DNA of 51,592 nt. Origin: Eubacteriales bacterium. GTDB taxonomy: Bacteria; Bacillota; Clostridia; Lachnospirales; Lachnospiraceae. A model generated the notes under the pieces. That model did not search any database, was not told where the DNA came from, and saw nothing but the letters and a program-made list of their open reading frames with translations. The position numbers were made by a program, and so were the translations under genes. The stretch's first letter is position 1; each line of letters opens with the position of its first letter. Shown here piece after piece: positions 6,764 through 18,473 of this stretch. The stretch is taken from NCBI GenBank assembly GCA_030524745.1, contig JAUNGC010000027.1:1-51592 (forward strand), given 5' to 3'.

Positions 6764-8758
6764 TTATTTTTTGTTCTCCCGAAACTGCAGCGGCGTCATC
6801 CCGTAGGTTTTCTTAAACAACCGGATAAAATGCTCCGCGTTCTCATAGCCCACGCTCTCGGCCACGCTTTCCACCTTCTGCGCAGAATCCTTCAGAAGAA
6901 TGCGCGCCTTTTTCATCCTCGCTTTTTTCACCGCTTCCTGAAAAGTCTCCCCGGTTCTTTGTTTGATATACTTGGACAGGTAAGGCGCAGAAAGGTGAAA
7001 ATTCTGAGCGAGTTCTTCCAGCGTCACATCCGCATAGTGATTCTGAATATAATTCATGATATCGATGATGCGCTCTTCCCGCCCTTCGGTGCAGTTTTCA
7101 CTCTTCGCCAGATGATTCGCGGCGGCGACCAGCGCGGCTATGGAACTCTTAATAATATCCTCATCAATCCCGACGCCCCAGAACATTTTTCCCTGACAGG
7201 AAATGCCCACATAGGCCGCCGCTTTGGAGGAGGAACCTCTGGAAATTGCATGTTCCTCATAAACTGTCAGTTCATAGCTGATGCCGAAATATGTCTTGAT
7301 CGCATTGCTCACCGCGTCCAGACGACCGTTGCCTGCCGCTTCGACTACGCGGTGCTCCCTGTTCTGCTCAATCGTAACGGACGCCAGAATTCCGTCCACC
7401 TGCTTGAAGTGACATTCCGGCACGTCGAAAACTTCTCTCTGGTTGATATAGTGATCCTCAAAGATCTGATAAATTTCCGCCGGCGTAAGTTCCTGATGCT
7501 TTCTGTCGGATACTCCTTTTATCAGATAACCCACTTCCTCTTTCATCTGGTTGGGCATGCTGATGCCGAAATTCTGTTTCAGAATAAAGGCTACGCCGCC
7601 CTTTCCGGACTGGCTGTTGATGCGGATGACGTCGGATTCATATTCCCGTCCCACATCCATGGGATCGATGGGAAGATAGGGAACATCCCAGCGCTCTCCG
7701 CTCTTTCCTTCGCTTCTCCATGCCATTCCTTTGGAAATGGCATCCTGATGGGAGCCGGAAAAGGCGGTAAACACCAGATCGCCCGCATAAGGCGTCCGCT
7801 CATAAACCTTCATGCCGGTCAATCTCTCATATACCTCCCTGATCCGGTTGATATCGGAAAAATCCAATCCGGGTTCCACGCCATGACAGACCATGTTCAT
7901 GGCCACCGTCACCAGATCCACATTTCCGGTCCGCTCTCCGTTTCCAAACAGCGTCCCCTCGATTCTGTCTGCGCCCGCCAGCACGCCGAATTCCGCATCG
8001 CTGATTCCGCAACCTCTGTCGTTATGGGGATGAACGCTCAGTACAACGGCATCGCGGTATTTCAGATGTTTGTGCAAATACTCCACCTGACAGGCGAACA
8101 CATGGGGCATCGCAATCTGCACTGTCGTAGGAATGTTGATAATCACCTTTTTAGAAGCGGTCGGCTGCCATACGTCCAGCACAGCGTTGCAGACCTCCAG
8201 CGCATAATCCACTTCCGTCCCCGGAAAACTCTCCGGACTGTATTCAAAGGTGAAATTGCCCTCTGTCTCTTCCGCGATCTGCTTAAGCAAAACCGCGCCG
8301 TCCACCGCAAGCTGTTTCACTTCCTCTTTGCTCTTCTTAAAAACCTGCTCCCGCTGCGCCACCGAGGTGGAATTATAAAGATGAATGACCGCATGAGGCG
8401 CGCCCTTTACCGCCTCAAAGGTTTTACGGATGATATGATCCCTGGCCTGGGTCAATACCTGAATTGTCACGTCCTCCGGAATCATATTCCTTTCGATCAA
8501 GGCACGCACAAACTGATATTCCGTATCGGAAGCTGCCGGAAATCCCACTTCGATTTCCTTAAAGCCGATTTTCACCAGCATTTCAAAAAATTCCAGCTTT
8601 TCATCCAGACTCATCGGCTCCACAAGCGCCTGATTCCCGTCGCGCAGATCCACGCTGCACCAGACAGGGGCTTTTTCGATAGTGTCCTTTTTCACCCAGT
8701 CGTATGTGACTTCGGGCGGCATAAAATAAGATTTTCCATATTTTTTTGTGATGTCCAT
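6764..8758 (-). CDS. leuA: 2-Isopropylmalate synthase fused to a C-terminal AraC-type HTH domain
   Basis: The enzyme condenses acetyl-CoA with 2-oxoisovalerate, the first committed step of leucine synthesis. The start is the ATG at 8758 (MDITKKYG) behind AAAGGAG; the frame is open further upstream but crosses the leader. Of 664 residues, about 30-310 are the HMGL-like TIM barrel with D-L-R-D-G-N-Q at 37-43, metal ligands H243/H245 (S-V-H-P-H-N-D) and G-N-G-E-R-T-G-N at 272-279. Residues about 440-550 form the LeuA regulatory/dimer domain. Residues about 558-664 are a complete two-helix-turn-helix AraC/XylS domain ([11 protein letters not shown], then [18 protein letters not shown]). LeuA proteins normally end after the dimer domain. 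Expression is under a leucine T-box. Enzyme call secure; DNA binding by the HTH is inferred. Confidence 0.95.
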
Positions 8759-8797
8759 AGTATGTGACTCCTTTCCTGTATTTTGAAAAAACCGGAC

Positions 8798-8913
8798 GAG
8801 CAGCACCGGAAATGCTTCGCATTTCCGGGCTCGCGTTGCTCGCCCCGCCATCGCCAGAATGCGAATGCCGATGCGAGCATCGCATTCGCCTTTTGGCGAT
8901 GGCGCTGCTCTGC
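8798..8913. repeat. Modular palindromic intergenic element, copy in the leuA leader
   Basis: The element opens with GAGCAGC (8798-8804) and closes with the near-complement GCTGCTCTGC (8904-8913). Inside are a 10-bp hairpin (CCGGAAATGC at 8806-8815, loop TTC, complement 8819-8828), a GGCTCGCGTTGCTCGC segment, and a long imperfect hairpin from GCCATCGCC to GGCGATGGC with a GATGCGAGCATC core. The first half is clearly related to 20552-20600. It lies between the T-box terminator and the leuA ribosome binding site, so it is in the transcribed leader. Confidence 0.75.
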
Positions 8914-8921
8914 TTATCGCG

Positions 8922-9271
8922 CAAAAAAACGTCTCCATAAAACCATCGTTTGTGATAGTTTCATAGAGACGCAAAATTCATTTACGCGGTACCACTCTAT
9001 TTCATGGCAGACGGCCATGCACTCACCGGCACTGCCGCTTGCGGCGTGATGCCTTTCCCCTTTGTACGGCGGGAAGTTCCGTCCGCTCCTACACAGCCGT
9101 ATCAGCCTTCGGGCAGCCGCTCCGAGGTCAGTTCACGCACTGTTTTCTGACTGCCTCGCACCGCCCGGCAGTTCTCTGATTTCCGACAGACCGCTACTAC
9201 TCCTCTTCATCGCGTTTTCCATATTGCAGCAGATATGCTTTACCGATCTATCATGATCCGCTGTTTTCACT
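8922..9271 (-). promoter_or_regulatory. T-box riboswitch (leucine specifier) upstream of leuA
   Basis: Read on the minus strand, the leader has a probable promoter (TTGCTG at 9306-9301, 17-bp spacer, TAAGAT at 9283-9278). Next come the GAGGAGTAGTA start of stem I, a GGGCGGTGCGAGGC distal loop, and a GAACTGACCTC specifier-loop strand, which offers CTG (9131-9129) directly after GAA. The alternative triplet CTC at 9126-9124 is also leucine. The canonical antiterminator T-box AGAGTGGTACCGCG is at 8998-8985. A terminator hairpin (GAGACG/CGTCTC arms at 8966-8971 and 8930-8935) ends in a T7 run at 8929-8923. Uncharged leucyl-tRNA should prevent termination and turn leuA on. Confidence 0.92.
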
Positions 9272-9338
9272 TTACACATCTTAACACAGGCATCAGGACA
9301 CAGCAAGGTGCAAATTTAATCAATTTAACTGATCTATT

Positions 9339-10112
9339 TTATCCCGCAGTCAAATTAAGGCCGTTCACCCAATTTGCAACATCGTTCTCCGCTCCCGATA
9401 CACTGTTTCGGGAGATGGAAAGTCCGTCAGAAATAACGTTCGCGTTCGGCTGCAATTCCGAGATCGTCTGAATGGTTCTGGAAAATCCGCTTCCGCCATG
9501 GGTGGTGAACGGAATAATAGTCTTACCACTGAAATCATATTCTTCAAGAAATGTATAGAGCGGCATCGGCAGATCGGCGTTCCAGTTAGGATAGCCAAGG
9601 AAAATCACGTCATAGCTGTCGGGGTTTTCAATCTGTGCCGCAAGTTCCGGTCTGGCATCGTCTGCCTTTTCATTGTAGGCGAATTCCAGAAGAGGATCGT
9701 GGGTCGTAGGATAATCCTGCACCGTTTCGATCGCAAACAGATCTCCGCCCGTTTCCCGCTGAATAATCCGGGCAATGTACTCGTTATTTCCCAAAACCTC
9801 ACCGTTCACTGCCACACGGCTCGCGCCGGCCACAGTATCCACGCCGTCTGTTTCCATGACAGAAAAATATGCAATCAGTATATTACCGTTTTCTGTTTCA
9901 CCTTCTGCGGATTCCCCTGTACTTTCTTCTGTACTTTCTTTTGTGCTTTCTCCTGTACCTCCTTCTGTACTGCTGTCATCGGATTCTGTGGTCAAAGCCG
10001 CCGTTTCCGTCTCTGCCGGCGTATCCGCTGTCGCATTCTGATTGTTGTTTCCGCAGGCTGCCAGAGAAAAAACCAACAGCGCCGAAAGAAGTGAGACTGT
10101 TATTTTTTTCAT
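9339..10112 (-). CDS. Flavodoxin-like lipoprotein
   Basis: The protein has 257 residues: a lipoprotein signal (positive MKK, hydrophobic run, lipobox L-A-A-C with Cys20), a low-complexity Ser/Thr/Glu spacer of about 55 residues, then a flavodoxin fold from about residue 77 (I-L-I-A-Y-F-S opening the FMN phosphate loop; V-I-F-L-G-Y-P-N-W; F-T-T-H-G-G-S-G). It resembles the flavodoxin_4 type lipoproteins of Clostridia. It should hang from the outer face of the membrane with FMN bound, perhaps moving electrons to or from partners at the surface. It is the last gene of the MerR-facing operon. The electron partner is unknown. Confidence 0.85.
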   Translation of the reverse strand: MKKITVSLLSALLVFSLAACGNNNQNATADTPAETETAALTTESDDSSTEGGTGESTKESTEESTGESAEGETENGNILIAYFSVMETDGVDTVAGASRVAVNGEVLGNNEYIARIIQRETGGDLFAIETVQDYPTTHDPLLEFAYNEKADDARPELAAQIENPDSYDVIFLGYPNWNADLPMPLYTFLEEYDFSGKTIIPFTTHGGSGFSRTIQTISELQPNANVISDGLSISRNSVSGAENDVANWVNGLNLTAG

Positions 10113-13637: not shown

Positions 13638-14576
13638 TTACATATCGCATTTCTTTTTCAGTTCTTCCCATCTTCTGTCCACTTCCGCCTGGAACAGTCC
13701 GATCAGATCTTCGTTTCCGGGCTTGAACAGATGCTGAAAGCGCTTCTGCGGGCGCAGGAAATCCTCCACCGGCAATTTTTTCCTGGGCTCATAGCTTAAA
13801 ATCCACTTTCCGTCGGCGACCTCATACAGCGGCCAGTAGCAGGTATCCACCGCCAGCCTGCAAATGGTCATCAGTTCCGAAGGATCATAGCCCCAGCCAC
13901 GCGGGCAGGGGGACATCACATTTAAGAAAGCCGCTCCCGGCGTATAAATCGCTTTTTCCGCCTTGGTATGCAGATCCCTGAAGTTTGCCGTAAAGGTGGT
14001 CTGTCCCACATAAGGAATATGGTGCTCCGCCATGATCGCCGCCAGATCCTTGCGAATCTGCACCTTTCCGTTGGATACTTTGCCCGCCGGGGTCGTCGTG
14101 GTATCCGCAAACTGCGGCGTCGCGGAGGAACGCTGGGTTCCGGTGTTCATGTAAGCGCCGTTGTCATAGCAGACATAAACCATATCATGTCCGCGCTCCA
14201 TTGCGCCGGACAAAGACTGAAATCCGATGTCATAAGTGCCGCCGTCACCGCCGAAGGTGATGAATTTATAATTTTCCGTAATCTTTCCTTTTTTCTTTAA
14301 AACCCGATAAGCAGTCTCAACGCCGGATAAGGTCGCTCCCGCATTTTCAAAAGCGTTATGAATGTAGCTGTCTTCATACGCGGTATAGGGGTACATGAAG
14401 GTGGATACCTCCAGACAGCCCGTGGCATTGCCCACCACCGCTTTATCCTCCGGACGCAGGGCCCGCAGCACGCTCCGCACCGTCACGGTTCCGCCGCAGC
14501 CCGCGCACATCCGGTGGCCCGGCGCCAGACGCTCCGGTCTGCTCATCACTTCTTTAAAATTATAAGCTGTTTCCAT
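13638..14576 (-). CDS. porB: 2-Oxoacid:ferredoxin oxidoreductase, beta (TPP-binding) subunit
   Basis: The start is the ATG at 14576 (METAYNF) behind GGGAGG, rather than the longer frame to 14609. Of 312 residues, C24-A-G-C27 near the N-terminus begins the 4Fe-4S ligand set and G-D-G-G-T-Y-D-I-G is the thiamine pyrophosphate/Mg motif (near residue 120). The protein decarboxylates a 2-oxoacid, passing electrons to ferredoxin and the acyl group to CoA, with the alpha, gamma and delta partners encoded immediately upstream. It overlaps the alpha gene by 17 bp. Subunit order gamma-delta-alpha-beta is that of porGDAB/vorGDAB operons. Pyruvate versus branched-chain substrate cannot be settled from these residues. 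Confidence 0.93.
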   Translation of the reverse strand: METAYNFKEVMSRPERLAPGHRMCAGCGGTVTVRSVLRALRPEDKAVVGNATGCLEVSTFMYPYTAYEDSYIHNAFENAGATLSGVETAYRVLKKKGKITENYKFITFGGDGGTYDIGFQSLSGAMERGHDMVYVCYDNGAYMNTGTQRSSATPQFADTTTTPAGKVSNGKVQIRKDLAAIMAEHHIPYVGQTTFTANFRDLHTKAEKAIYTPGAAFLNVMSPCPRGWGYDPSELMTICRLAVDTCYWPLYEVADGKWILSYEPRKKLPVEDFLRPQKRFQHLFKPGNEDLIGLFQAEVDRRWEELKKKCDM

Positions 14577-15768
14577 GACGATCTCCCTCCCTGAGTCCGA
14601 TATAGGCATACATATCCTTCACCACATGGGTTTTTGCCATTTCTTCCAGATTCTCGTACACCCGTTCAAAATCCTCTACGGTAATGTCCCTGCCGCCCAG
14701 TCCGTAAAAATAGTTTACAACTTCCGCTTCCAATTTCGCGCCGTAAAGCGCCGCGCGCACTTCTGCTCCCAGCGGTCCGCTCGTGGCGGAAAACATCTCG
14801 GAACGGTCCAGCACAGCGATCGCCTTCATTCCCTTCAGCGCGGCAGCCAGTTCTTCCTCCGGGAAAGGGCGGAACACTCTGATTTTCACAAGACCGGCCT
14901 TTTTCCCTGTGGTCTCCCTGATTTTATCCACCGCGGCCTTACAGGTTCCCGCCGCTGAACCGATAACCACTACCGCATATTGGGCGTCCTCCATCCGGTA
15001 TTCTTCAAAAAATCCGTACTTTCTGCCCGTCATCCTCTCGAATTTTTCCGCCGTTTCCAGAATGACCTGCTTCGCGTTCTTCATAGCCTCACGCTGCGCC
15101 CGCTTTGTTTCCATATAATAATTGGATACGGCATAAGGACCCACCGCCATCGGCTCTTTTTCATTTAACAGATAATGTTCCGGACAATATTCTCCCACAA
15201 ATTCTTTTGCCTTTTCGTCCTCCACCAGCAAAATATTTTCTACGCCGTGACTGGTGATAAAACCGTCCTGACAGATCATGACCGGAAGGCGCACCGCCGC
15301 ATTTTCCGCAATCGGATAGGCCTGTAAAAAATTATCGTATACTTCCTGGTTGGATTCCGCATAAATCTGAATCCATCCCGAATCCCTCGCGCCCATGCTG
15401 TCCGAATGATCCGCGTTAATATTGATCGGACCGGTCAAAGCGCGGTTCACGAGCGCCAGCACCACAGGCAGCCGGTCGGACGCCGCCACATACAGTTCTT
15501 CCCACATCAGAGCCATGCCGCAGGACGAAGTCGCCGTAACCGTCCGCGCTCCCGCCGCGGATGCACCGATCGCCGCGCTCATAGCGCTGTGTTCGCTCTC
15601 CACATGGATGAATTCCGTGCCGATTTCGCCGTTCGCAATATAATTTGCCACATACTGCGGGATCTCCGTGGAAGGCGTAATGGGAAAAGCCGGCATCACG
15701 TCGGGATTGATCTGTTTAATCGCATATGCCACGGCCTCATTGCCGGATAAACGTTCTCTGACCGCCAT
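14560..15768 (-). CDS. porA: 2-Oxoacid:ferredoxin oxidoreductase, alpha subunit
   Basis: The 402-residue protein carries F-P-I-T-P-S-T-E-I near residue 30, the pyrimidine-domain hallmark of POR/VOR alpha subunits, and E-S-E-H-S-A-M-S-A-A-I-G-A-S-A-A-G-A-R around 57-75. Domain II (transketolase C-terminal-like) covers about 250-390. It forms the catalytic heterodimer with the beta subunit. The delta gene ends one base before it (stop at 15769), so the genes are tightly packed. The gene symbol follows operon structure; vorA would be equally valid if the substrate is a branched-chain 2-oxoacid. Confidence 0.92.
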   Translation of the reverse strand: MAVRERLSGNEAVAYAIKQINPDVMPAFPITPSTEIPQYVANYIANGEIGTEFIHVESEHSAMSAAIGASAAGARTVTATSSCGMALMWEELYVAASDRLPVVLALVNRALTGPININADHSDSMGARDSGWIQIYAESNQEVYDNFLQAYPIAENAAVRLPVMICQDGFITSHGVENILLVEDEKAKEFVGEYCPEHYLLNEKEPMAVGPYAVSNYYMETKRAQREAMKNAKQVILETAEKFERMTGRKYGFFEEYRMEDAQYAVVVIGSAAGTCKAAVDKIRETTGKKAGLVKIRVFRPFPEEELAAALKGMKAIAVLDRSEMFSATSGPLGAEVRAALYGAKLEAEVVNYFYGLGGRDITVEDFERVYENLEEMAKTHVVKDMYAYIGLREGDRHGNSL

Positions 15769-16065
15769 TTATTTTCCCTCCTTCATTTCAATCGCGCCAA
15801 AAGGGCAGACCTTTGCGCAGATGCCGCAGCCTTTACAATGATCGTAGTCAAAATCCTGCCGTTTTCCTTCCGAAACCGGAATCGAAGAATCCGGACATAC
15901 CGGCGCGCACAGCAGGCACTGCTTACATTTTTCCTTTATGAACAAAGGAGTGGATGTTCTCCATTCCCCTGTGCAGAATTGTCTGGAAGTAGCGGGTTCA
16001 TAAATCTGATTTCCTTCCGTAATATCCTGCCAGGGACTTCTCTCGTTAATATTCTCGCTTTTCAT
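15769..16065 (-). CDS. porD: 2-Oxoacid:ferredoxin oxidoreductase, delta (2x[4Fe-4S] ferredoxin) subunit
   Basis: The start is taken at ATG 16065 (MKSENINE) behind AAAGGACTG; a longer frame to 16110 lacks a better site and would overlap the gamma gene. The 98-residue protein has two ferredoxin motifs, C-K-Q-C-L-L-C-A-P-V-C-P and C-K-G-C-G-I-C-A-K-V-C-P, which bind two 4Fe-4S clusters and carry electrons from the catalytic core to external ferredoxin. The N-terminal about 45 residues are the extension typical of POR/VOR delta subunits. Confidence 0.93.
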   Translation of the reverse strand: MKSENINERSPWQDITEGNQIYEPATSRQFCTGEWRTSTPLFIKEKCKQCLLCAPVCPDSSIPVSEGKRQDFDYDHCKGCGICAKVCPFGAIEMKEGK

Positions 16066-16100
16066 CCCGTTATCAGTCCTTTCTTTGTGTCTTCCGTATT

Positions 16101-16712
16101 TCAGGCGCATACCGCCTGCCTGTCCGTCCCGTTCGAGTTCTCTTCAATCGCTTCAAAGGTGAGTTGAAGCGCTTTCATATTGCCTTCTATCACTTCCGGC
16201 TTTTTGGCAAATTTATGTTCAAAGGAAGCCTGCATTTCCTTTAGGAAAACTTCCTGCTCCATCACGCCCGATACCGCCACCACCGCGGCCAGCATGGGCG
16301 AATTGGGATAGTTCTTCCCCAGCGCGCTGACGGATATTTTCCTTGCGTCAACGGTAAAAACCTTTCCTTCAAAACCGTGCAGCATCGGGAGGATCTCTTC
16401 TTTACTGCGGGAAGTGTTCACGATTACCGCCCCGTCTTTTTTCAGCCCCGCCGTCACGTCGATGCTTTCCAGAAGCCCATCGTCCACCACGACCACATAA
16501 TCCGGAAAATAAATGTTGGAATGAATGGTGATCGGTCTGCTGCTGATTCTGTTATACGCCGTAATCGGCGCGCCCATCCGTTCCGGTCCGTATTCCGGAA
16601 AGCCCTGCACATACTTTCCCGTCTGAAACGCCACATCCGCCAAAAGCAGCGCCGCCGTTTTGGCTCCCTGGCCGCCGCGTCCATGCCATCTGATTTCAAT
16701 TGTGTCCTTCAT
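16101..16712 (-). CDS. porG: 2-Oxoacid:ferredoxin oxidoreductase, gamma subunit
   Basis: The start is ATG 16712 (MKDTIEIRW); an upstream in-frame start at 16730 is disfavoured because the AAAGGAG ribosome binding site overlaps it. The 203-residue protein opens with I-R-W-H-G-R-G-G-Q-G-A, the family signature, and belongs to the POR/KOR gamma family that binds CoA and helps electron transfer. It is the first gene of the four-gene operon, downstream of a T-box-like leader and a strong promoter. Confidence 0.93.
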   Translation of the reverse strand: MKDTIEIRWHGRGGQGAKTAALLLADVAFQTGKYVQGFPEYGPERMGAPITAYNRISSRPITIHSNIYFPDYVVVVDDGLLESIDVTAGLKKDGAVIVNTSRSKEEILPMLHGFEGKVFTVDARKISVSALGKNYPNSPMLAAVVAVSGVMEQEVFLKEMQASFEHKFAKKPEVIEGNMKALQLTFEAIEENSNGTDRQAVCA

Positions 16713-16792
16713 AAAACTCTCTCCTTTCATTTACCCCTGTATTTTGCAGACGTCAAAACGCTTCCGGATTCGCGGTTCCCGCCGGATAAAAC

Positions 16793-16850: not shown

Positions 16851-17090
16851 ATAAAAAAACTTCCACCGTAAACGGCAGAAGCTTCATCCTCACATTCCAT
16901 TTACGACATACCAACATATGCGTCCTCTGTCACGGAAGGAACCCGTCAGCATCTACTCGCTCTCGCTTTGGTGCTGCAACTCGGGAGGGATTTTCCATAA
17001 ATTCTACTGGTACCGCTTCTCAGCAAACGCGGCTCTCTGTGACTCTTTGAATGAATGTACTGTCTCCGTCATCGTTTTTCATAATTCAAC
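16851..17090 (-). promoter_or_regulatory. T-box-like leader upstream of the oxidoreductase operon
   Basis: On the minus strand the leader shows, in order, GGAGACAGTA (stem I base and AGTA bulge), ACAGAGAGCCGC...GAGAAGCGG (distal AG-bulge/terminal loop), GAATTTATGGAAAATCCC (specifier strand), a GAGCGAGTAGATG stem II, and GACGGG...CCGTGACAGAGG, the IIA/B pseudoknot pattern. A terminator follows (CTTCTGCCG/CGGTGGAAG, 16881-16860, then T7). The antiterminator motif is divergent: TTGGTATGTCG in place of TGGNACCGCG. The specifier may be ATC (Ile; 16991-16989) or AAT (Asn; 16992-16990); I cannot fix the register. It is called a T-box from these ordered motifs, with the weak T-box sequence as the main doubt. 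Confidence 0.72.
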
Positions 17091-17172: not shown

Positions 17173-17646
17173 CTATTCCTGCCAGCCTTTGCAGACGTCC
17201 ACCCATTCTTTGGCGCCGGAATACCGCTCCAGTTCCTCCATATCCAGTTCTATCGCGCTGTTGTCGCTGCCGCACGCCGGAAATACCGTCTCAAACCGCC
17301 GCAGGGACACATCCAGATATACCAGAATTCCTTCCTTGACGCCAAAGGGGCACACGCCGCCGACGCCATGACCGATTGCGGGCTCCACCTCCTCAAAGGC
17401 GAGCATTTTGGCCTTTACGCCAAATTTCGCCTTATACTTAGCGTTATCAATCTTGGCGTCTCCCGCCGTCACAATCAGAACCGGCCGTTCATGAACCCAG
17501 AAGGAAAGCGTCTTTGCAATCCGCTTTCCTTCCACGCCCACAGCTTTGGCCGCTAACTCCACGGTAGCGGAGGAAACCTCAAATTCCCGGATTCTGTCCG
17601 CCACGCCAAACTGTCTTAAATATTCTCTCGCTCTTTCGATTGCCAT
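17173..17646 (-). CDS. YbaK/EbsC-family aminoacyl-tRNA deacylase-like protein
   Basis: The start is ATG 17646 behind AGGGAG, giving 157 residues; the long frame to 17838 runs through folT and is not real. The sequence fits the YbaK/ProX editing fold: A-K-T-L-S-F-W-V near residue 44, a K-Y-K-A-K-F-G-V-K segment and H-G-V-G-G-V-C-P-F-G, the conserved substrate loop. Such proteins hydrolyse mischarged Cys- or Ala-tRNA. The gene begins 2 bp after the folT stop, so it belongs to the same riboswitch-controlled transcript, an unexplained pairing. Confidence 0.88.
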   Translation of the reverse strand: MAIERAREYLRQFGVADRIREFEVSSATVELAAKAVGVEGKRIAKTLSFWVHERPVLIVTAGDAKIDNAKYKAKFGVKAKMLAFEEVEPAIGHGVGGVCPFGVKEGILVYLDVSLRRFETVFPACGSDNSAIELDMEELERYSGAKEWVDVCKGWQE

Positions 17647-17648
17647 TT

Positions 17649-18236
17649 TTATCTCCCTGAAGCTTTTCTCTTTTTCCCCGGCACATAAATATTCATCAGC
17701 CGAAATACTCCCGAAATCTCCAGAATTTTCAGGATCAGATAAAGGACTCCGGAATTGAACGGCCACAAAACGATATTTTTGATAAAACGCGCCGGAAGGA
17801 TCGCCCAAAAAGCATTTCCGTACAGCATGGAATTCCATAAGGTTCCCAGCCCTACATTAATGATAATCGCCACCAGCAATTTAGCCGCCAGAATTCTCCA
17901 GATCCGGATCGGCTTTTTGTACAGAAAAGATCCGTAAATCAGGCCCGCCAGAAAAGCGTTCAGCGTATAGCCGAAAAAATAAGCCCCTGTGGGATGTACC
18001 ATCCATTTAAATACGTCCATCACGGCCGCAAAAATACAGCCGACCACAGGTCCGAACAAAAAATCCACCATTTCGTTCGGGATGCCGGAGAAACCGATCT
18101 TAATATAATTGGTCAACTGAATGGAAAAAGATTCCAGAACAAACGCAAGAGCCGCAAAAAGCCCGCACAACGCAATGGTGCGCACGTTTTTGAACTCCTG
18201 CGCGGAATCTGTGAATAAGGCTGCAAATTTCTTCAT
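17649..18236 (-). CDS. folT: Folate ECF transporter substrate-binding (S) component
   Basis: The start is ATG 18236 (MKKFAALF) behind GAAGGAGG. The 195-residue protein has about five to six hydrophobic segments and the ECF S-component layout (R-T-I-A-L-C-G-L-F-A-A-L-A-F entering TM1; G-P-V-V-G-C-I-F-A-A-V-M-D; H-P-T-G-A-Y-F-F-G-Y-T-L-N-A). The upstream THF riboswitch assigns folate as the ligand with good confidence. It docks with a shared EcfAA'T energising module encoded elsewhere. Confidence 0.9.
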   Translation of the reverse strand: MKKFAALFTDSAQEFKNVRTIALCGLFAALAFVLESFSIQLTNYIKIGFSGIPNEMVDFLFGPVVGCIFAAVMDVFKWMVHPTGAYFFGYTLNAFLAGLIYGSFLYKKPIRIWRILAAKLLVAIIINVGLGTLWNSMLYGNAFWAILPARFIKNIVLWPFNSGVLYLILKILEISGVFRLMNIYVPGKKRKASGR

Positions 18237-18335
18237 AAAAAACCTCCTTCTACAGACATCCGGCCGCAAAAGGAGATAAAGAATAGACGTATCGTCAGAG
18301 ATGACTTTCTCTGAAAATGCTGATTATCTTCCGCT

Positions 18336-18435
18336 GCAGCGAGATGCGATCCATATACCGCAAGCGTCTGCCGCTTTTCGTCCGACCGGCAACTCTCTGT
18401 CCGGAAGGCACTTAACGCATATGGGTCTACTCTGC
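18336..18435 (-). promoter_or_regulatory. Tetrahydrofolate (THF) riboswitch
   Basis: Read from 18435 downward: GCAGAGTAGACCCATATGCG, then TTAAGTGCC, GGACGAAAAGCGGCAGACGC, GCGGTATATGG, and the closing GCATCTCGCTGC. These match the THF (folE-type) riboswitch: a GAGTAGA 5' helix, GCGTTAAGTG internal loop, a three-way junction and a 3' strand that closes P1. Folate excess should reduce folT expression. The ligand call follows from the RNA class and the folT target. Confidence 0.9.
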
Positions 18436-18473
18436 AATAAAATAAATGATTAACAGTTACTACACCGGGCTTT

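Follow-up and report, generated by a model that had tools for sequence, protein, structure and literature searches.

The window analysed here, a 51,592 nucleotide stretch of a Lachnospiraceae genome, carries on its reverse strand a gene in which a 2-isopropylmalate synthase (LeuA) runs on, in a single reading frame, into an AraC-type DNA-binding domain. The best reading of this protein, drawn from comparison of sequences, is that of a trigger enzyme, in which LeuA would carry an autoregulator for branched-chain amino acid genes, and we hold it probable that the fusion is both a working 2-isopropylmalate synthase and a leucine-tuned transcription factor of its own gene, likely an activator. New here is a putative binding site, a dyad-symmetric 31-bp candidate operator at the fused genes.

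Domain organisation and the leucine pocket

The fusion gene and its parts are as follows.

6764..8758, reverse strand: leuA-araC fusion gene, 664 amino acids by translation, ATG at 8758
7835..8665, reverse strand: HMGL-like catalytic TIM barrel of 2-isopropylmalate synthase, residues 32-308, catalytic motifs intact (Pfam, E 4.1e-70)
7577..7780, reverse strand: IPMS_D2 post-catalytic domain, residues 327-394 (Pfam)
7109..7492, reverse strand: LeuA_dimer regulatory (leucine-binding) domain, residues 423-550 (Pfam)
7013..7108, reverse strand: variable linker joining the LeuA and AraC parts, residues 551-582, with the highest dN/dS among the parts (0.152, a rough value)
6776..7012, reverse strand: AraC-type double helix-turn-helix domain (HTH_18), residues 583-661 (Pfam, E 1.5e-21)

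Translated from its ATG, 8758-6764 gives 664 residues with a single stop and no frameshift, and every Pfam domain of the fusion lies above its cut-off, HTH_18 with 76.9 bits (cut-off 33.6) and HTH_AraC with a match at residues 624-660. The LeuA part, all three of whose domains exceed their cut-offs, belongs to the PRK03739 subfamily of 2-isopropylmalate synthases and scores 799.8 bits against the NCBIfam subfamily model NF002991 (cut-off 455), while the AraC module, including its leading helix, extends over approximately residues 562-662. The unbroken frame and the Pfam matches thus agree with the sequence-only reading, which had described a full LeuA with intact domains continuing into an AraC module with no stop or frameshift. 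Sequence comparison with solved structures pairs the LeuA part with M. tuberculosis LeuA (507 bits) and the tail with the DNA-binding domains of AraC and MarA (2k9s, 1bl0). An AlphaFold2 monomer model built from a 58-row alignment has a mean pLDDT of 78.1 and a pTM of 0.57, is weakest at residues 321-342 and 353-386, and folds the AraC tail into seven helices with block pLDDT values of 82-89. In a Foldseek search with this model the top match is M. tuberculosis LeuA (TM 0.46 over the query), and no AraC chain is among the best 50 matches listed. Met568, a possible internal start that would yield a free AraC domain, is not conserved across genera.

The M. tuberculosis enzyme is a dimer, and its substrate-binding and catalytic residues include D81, H285, H287, E309, N321, H379 and Y410 (PMC2704214). 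Their equivalents in the fusion, D40, H243, H245, E267, N279, H337 and Y361, mapped by sequence alignment with the M. tuberculosis LeuA structure, are present in 85/85 fused and 22/22 unfused proteins, which agrees with the earlier description of the catalytic motifs as intact. Among the residues that form the M. tuberculosis leucine pocket, G531, G533, L535, Y554 and A567 are kept in the fused proteins, the A558 position is Ala in 78/85 and the A565 position Ser in 82/85, and V551 is replaced by Leu. The leucine-contacting A536 aligns with Asp481, an Asp in 85/85 fused and also in 16/22 unfused proteins. As the pocket residues are mostly kept, leucine feedback on the fusion enzyme is plausible.

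The exchange of Ala536 for Asp481 is one of two points for a different effector, in which DNA binding would be tuned not by leucine but by a compound that the enzyme consumes or makes (2-ketoisovalerate, acetyl-CoA or 2-isopropylmalate); the other is the presence of candidate operators, in one group of loci, at the ilvN-ilvC genes of the route to 2-ketoisovalerate. Against this stand the position of the AraC domain directly after the leucine-binding domain and a pocket in which GNG, Tyr500, Ala504 and Ala513 (fusion numbering) are largely kept, and we regard a ligand other than leucine as unlikely, though deserving some weight.

Spread, descent and selection of the fusion

The fusion is found full length and free of stops in 17 of 61 genomes of relatives, the window's own included: in 10/13 of the same genus, 17/37 of the same family and 0/24 from other families of the order. 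A class-wide draw gave it in 13 of 391 genomes, a count to which matches cut by contig ends (e.g. in G434 and G166) could add, and three of the 13 lie in other families (G273, G135 and G275). It is also present in two complete genomes, AP025576.1 and AP018536.1. This full-length recurrence rules out an assembly-made fusion, which the sequence-only reading had named as its first possible refutation, and its proposal that LeuA-AraC fusions be sought elsewhere is answered by these counts. Among 562 confirmed relatives of the C-terminal part, 80 were listed, at least 72 of them complete fused frames, with titles mostly from Lachnospiraceae (Eisenbergiella, Roseburia and Acetatifactor among them). 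Removing eight without a usable complete frame, six that were training loci for the operator matrix described below and nine more than 97% alike leaves 57 non-redundant listed loci; 11 fused loci fetched later were not filtered against these or each other, and L212/L214 and L209/L164 are near-copies on the tree.

In a quick tree of the LeuA part (77 rows, with every second one of the 57 listed loci used and L028 and L034 omitted), the 57 fused rows form one side of a branch with SH-aLRT 99, nested among unfused LeuA. One clade placed in this way fits a single, old fusion event. The fused genes of other families, L217, L218 and L219 (from G273, G135 and G275, respectively), carry the candidate operator and branch within the fused clade or at its base; transfer or bin contamination must be assumed for them. 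The window's genome has in addition a second, unfused LeuA (L055, G000:C59:58760-60418) that is 50% identical. Stretches of 5.7-27 kb surrounding 17 fused and four unfused loci show no operon partner conserved across genera: the clusters found in at least three of those loci are LeuA and, within the genus only, carB, carA, purC and an antisense frame (carB, carA and purC are named from sequence, carB also by Pfam).

Within the genus dN/dS is 0.083 for the helix-turn-helix domain, 0.098 for LeuA_dimer, 0.061 for the catalytic domain and 0.152 for the linker, all rough values as dS exceeds 1, and by these ratios the AraC tail is under purifying selection. Y593, S595, E642 and R646, which are recognition-helix residues of the two helix-turn-helix units, are identical in 85/85 fused proteins; loss of conserved helix-turn-helix residues, which would have spoken against the original proposal, is not seen. 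The variable linker before the tail could be taken as the mark of an accidental fusion, whose AraC part would be a decaying passenger devoid of DNA-binding function, but the four invariant residues, the low dN/dS of the tail and its seven predicted helices make this extremely improbable.

The DNA-reading parts are especially uniform. Over 20 diverse fused proteins the mean frequency of the top residue in the two recognition helices is 0.82 and 0.85 (whole domain 0.72), as against 0.49 and 0.52 (whole domain 0.50) in 20 AraC paralogs of the relatives, although greater likeness within a family is expected by descent anyway. Residues specific to the fused AraC domain include K596, Y597, E642, H643 and N645. 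One operator and one set of DNA-reading residues have been retained together in the fused family.

Candidate operator, T-box leader and further sites

The region upstream of the fusion gene contains the following elements.

9311..9341, reverse strand: candidate operator of the AraC domain, dyad-symmetric TAAAATAGATCAGTTAAATTGATTAAATTTG (motif matrix and comparison)
9301..9306, reverse strand: -35 element TTGCTG, 4 bp downstream of the operator (read by eye)
9278..9283, reverse strand: -10 element TAAGAT with TGn extension, 17 bp from the -35 element (read by eye)
8962..9219, reverse strand: T-box leader (RF00230), 97.3 bits (gathering threshold 93), CUG (leucine) at the specifier position
8923..8972, reverse strand: terminator hairpin and T run of the T-box leader (read by eye)

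An AT-rich sequence just before the promoter is common to those 15 of the 17 fused loci that have enough upstream DNA, and in the fused genes it takes the form of a 31-bp dyad-symmetric candidate operator, TAAAATAAATCAAtnAAaTTGATTAAATTT, whose distance to the -35 and -10 elements downstream of it is fixed. A matrix built from those 15 sites was scored on loci outside the training set, where 55 of 68 held-out fused loci, and 3 of 3400 dinucleotide shuffles, reach 15 bits, leaving 13 of the 68 below. None of 22 leuA genes counted as unfused does so (one of these, L028, is cut by a contig end at residue 503, so that its tail is not visible); the largest score among them, 14.0 bits at L030, comes from a match that extends into the apparent start of that gene's T-box, and the next is 0.5. 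In the 57 non-redundant listed loci the median best score is 26.8 bits upstream and -10.8 downstream (largest 4.6, n=55). Because the operator is nearly palindromic, scores are also elevated on the opposite strand of those upstream stretches, where the median is 3.6 and the maximum 24.0, and with the matrix reversed, where they are 2.4 and 18.8. All 11 newly fetched fused loci, three of them from other families, score at least 23.4 bits, whereas all nine unfused leuA genes at 63-66% identity remain at or below -0.1. A larger matrix of 70 sites gives 10 bits or more at 80 of 85 fused loci, most of the scored sites being inside that matrix; of the five under 10, three have less than 360 bp of upstream sequence, with L191 at 10.0 and L192 at 6.4. 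The operator has no match in G006, a genome of the same genus that lacks the fusion, or at the second, unfused leuA that the window's genome carries. One fused locus, L186, has two operator-like sites, approximately 40 and 119 bp before leuA-araC.

Dyad symmetry about operator position 16 is 0.549 (shuffle mean 0.358), a value reached by 2 of 5000 column shuffles; the direct-repeat scores of 0.504 (period 9) and 0.496 (period 13) come near it, and the shuffle test covers symmetry only. Relative to the operator, the TTG of the -35 element lies at position 35-36 in 60 of 80 loci and TGnTA at 55-57 in 69 of 80. Such a fixed distance between operator and promoter is what an activator touching RNA polymerase needs.

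This conserved sequence looks like the site bound by the fused AraC domain. As the fused genes form one clade, the joint occurrence of operator and tail does not count as wholly independent evidence: a gene can pass on an upstream site that its own product does not bind. These genomes are rich in AraC paralogs, and another transcription factor might read the operator while the AraC tail serves as a scaffold, binds elsewhere or is idle. We judge such a division of labour decidedly unlikely. The operator accompanies the fused gene into other families (G273, G135 and G275) and is missing at the unfused leuA genes tested, in G006 and at the second leuA of the window's genome; its dyad symmetry suits a dimer, and those copies elsewhere that have the native spacing sit at branched-chain amino acid genes.

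The candidate operator and its promoter lie upstream of a leucine T-box leader in the window, with antiterminator TGGNACCGCG and specifier context GAA-CUG-ACC. A simple antiterminator rule, which can miss T-boxes, finds one in 28 of 85 fused leaders (26 with a Leu codon, two without by this rule) and in 11 of 22 unfused leaders (10 with a Leu codon). The remaining 57 of 85 fused loci have no T-box-like antiterminator in the upstream sequence, which covers up to 900 bp and less in some. T-boxes in both fused and unfused leaders suggest that control by a leucine T-box probably came first, and that many fused genes have since dropped the T-box yet retain the protein operator.

Other leader elements were seen in the window. 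A long palindromic GC-rich element lies between the T-box terminator and the start codon (approximately 8795-8915, reverse strand); a 16-base core of this element occurs once in the window, and a related stretch is present in the leader of L007. A weaker T-box (16916-17081, reverse strand, 68.5 bits, gathering threshold 93) precedes 2-oxoacid:ferredoxin oxidoreductase genes at 13638-16730 (Pfam POR, POR_N, PFOR_II and TPP_enzyme_C), and a tetrahydrofolate riboswitch (18335-18436, reverse strand, 83.7 bits) lies upstream of frame 17173-17838, whose Pfam match is an aminoacyl-tRNA editing domain.

In the window's genome a first operator pattern, allowing up to three mismatches, finds the gene's own promoter (no mismatches) and one three-mismatch site, dismissed as a target for want of a sensible gene; a second pattern finds one other three-mismatch site. 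With its own promoter as the only good site, the AraC domain looks there like a dedicated autoregulator and not a controller of many promoters. A strict variable-gap pattern gives 44 matches in 69 fused genomes and one with the pattern reversed. Of these 44, 35 are at leuA-araC (28 in the genome's own locus and seven in a matching named locus), and only two of the other nine have the native spacing, at leuC (G280) and at ilvN-ilvC (G456); the seven with non-native spacing, in or near unrelated genes, we take as chance.

The leuC site, approximately 90-120 bp upstream of the gene in G280, is also the only other one found at up to one mismatch in 28 fused genomes. It is present in 5/5 genomes of that genus, scoring 29.1-38.8 bits in four; the G440 site, one base longer, scores 3.4 bits ungapped and was recognised by eye. 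The other 23 of the 28 fused genomes have no such leuC operator (best 6.3 bits, one lacking upstream sequence), and leuCD of the window's genus has no operator site. A gene named from its sequence as LysR-type (L102, 335-1291, reverse strand) is divergent from leuCD in the window's genome, and TTATACTATAAC...TTATAGTAAA, perhaps a LysR site, is common to several leuC upstream regions of the window's genus.

In G456 the operator lies between ilvN and a second ilvN, with ilvC next. Over 30 second-ilvN loci, 12 score 8.3-33.8 bits, 91-97 bp upstream and just before TTGACTTTT; G447 is a thirteenth ilvN-ilvC locus, with the same left arm by eye, and the remaining 17 stay at or below -1.4. Within one ilv locus a control stretch scored as high as 15.4 bits, so that only seven of the 30 loci exceed it by score and the rest rely on position and alignment. 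Being related, the leuC and ilvN-ilvC loci amount to only a few independent events. Even so, the extra native-spacing sites at leuCD and ilvN-ilvC are hard to put down to chance. The sequence-only reading had suggested direct control of branched-chain or other genes, and for the branched-chain genes the suggestion gains strong support from comparison, though it stands in part only: the candidate operator is present at the fused gene and, in some lineages, at leuCD or ilvN-ilvC, but in the window's genome at its own promoter only.

Weaker patterns are less selective. In 17 fused genomes a weak pattern gives 23 matches, 13 at leuA-araC and 10 elsewhere (eight with the pattern reversed); in all 61 genomes, approximately 114 against 56 reversed by hand count; and in 28 fused genomes 64, of which 20 are at leuA-araC and 44 elsewhere, one at leuC, against 26 reversed. 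This excess may reflect further real sites, or the reversed pattern may be an imperfect control. One-mismatch sites in the unfused G036 and G055 have no branched-chain amino acid gene nearby, and a one-mismatch operator-like site also occurs in the unfused G049.

The promoter at ilvN-ilvC in G456 is near-consensus, TTGACT-17-TAAAAT, and so looks good without help. It is above all for this reason that repression is kept as a rival: leucine-loaded LeuA-AraC would occupy the operator and shut off the promoter of its own gene, as well as the leuCD and ilvN-ilvC promoters of some lineages, a simple feedback logic. Yet the operator ends upstream of the -35 element and does not cover it, and a spacing fixed within 1-2 bp over most loci, together with leuA-araC promoters in which only the TTG of the -35 element is conserved, fits an activator better. 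Members of the AraC family mostly activate. We therefore give autorepression only a minor share of the probability, and activation at low leucine, ceasing at high leucine, is most likely the direction of control.

Proposed mechanism and known enzyme-regulators

We infer binding of the operator by the AraC tail, with leucine as the effector and activation as the outcome. The LeuA homodimer would present two AraC domains to the 31-bp inverted-repeat operator, which ends approximately 4 bp upstream of the -35 element; two tails on the two-fold axis of the dimer suit an inverted repeat. Once bound, the fusion would govern transcription initiation from its own promoter and, in some lineages, from those of leuCD and ilvN-ilvC. 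When leucine is low, the dimer, bound to the operator beside the -35 element, would assist polymerase at a promoter in which only the TTG of that element is kept. Leucine bound in the LeuA regulatory domain would alter the DNA-binding state, stopping catalysis and ending activation, so that one binding event could feed back on both catalysis and transcription. The leucine T-box, where kept, would supply a second read-out through the charging of tRNA-Leu. Slightly better than even, in our estimate, is the chance that the whole of a broader account is right, in which the allosteric leucine pocket steers catalysis and own-gene transcription, operators were gained in separate lineages at leuCD and ilvN-ilvC after a single fusion, the T-box was lost in many descendants, and the arrangement is common in gut Lachnospiraceae.

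No report of a LeuA-AraC fusion was found in the open PMC literature, and the available text of PMC9026213 treats LeuA solely as a pathway gene and contains no 'AraC'. Enzyme-regulator fusions are known, and none built on LeuA was found in that open literature. If the proposal is true, a regulator of leucine synthesis was born from the first enzyme of the pathway, showing how a single step can turn a feedback-regulated enzyme into a transcription factor, and how control by RNA (the T-box) can give way to control by protein at one gene. The proposal would give a large group of gut bacteria a predicted leucine regulator, and since a candidate DNA site and a small putative regulon accompany the fusion, the idea is directly testable with one protein and one 31-bp DNA.

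M. tuberculosis LeuA (1SR9, 3FIG) shares with the fusion its fold, its domains and most of the leucine pocket, but ends after the regulatory domain and has no DNA-binding domain. The leader in the window (8962-9219), with its CUG specifier, is of the same type as the leucine T-boxes that control leuA in Clostridia; unlike plain T-box leuA genes, the fused loci add a candidate protein operator upstream of the T-box promoter. PutA is a trigger enzyme of proline catabolism, a flavoenzyme that represses through a ribbon-helix-helix domain, and so is likewise a metabolic enzyme controlling its own gene by a built-in DNA-binding domain, as is proposed for LeuA-AraC; PutA, however, is catabolic and a repressor, whereas the fusion is biosynthetic, carries an AraC-type domain and probably activates. 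Ada of E. coli is a methyltransferase with an AraC-type helix-turn-helix that regulates its own gene. Ada and LeuA-AraC would thus both be enzymes fused to AraC-type units and acting on their own genes, but Ada senses DNA damage by methylating itself, whereas LeuA-AraC is a biosynthetic enzyme with an allosteric amino-acid pocket and has its helix-turn-helix units at the C-terminus.
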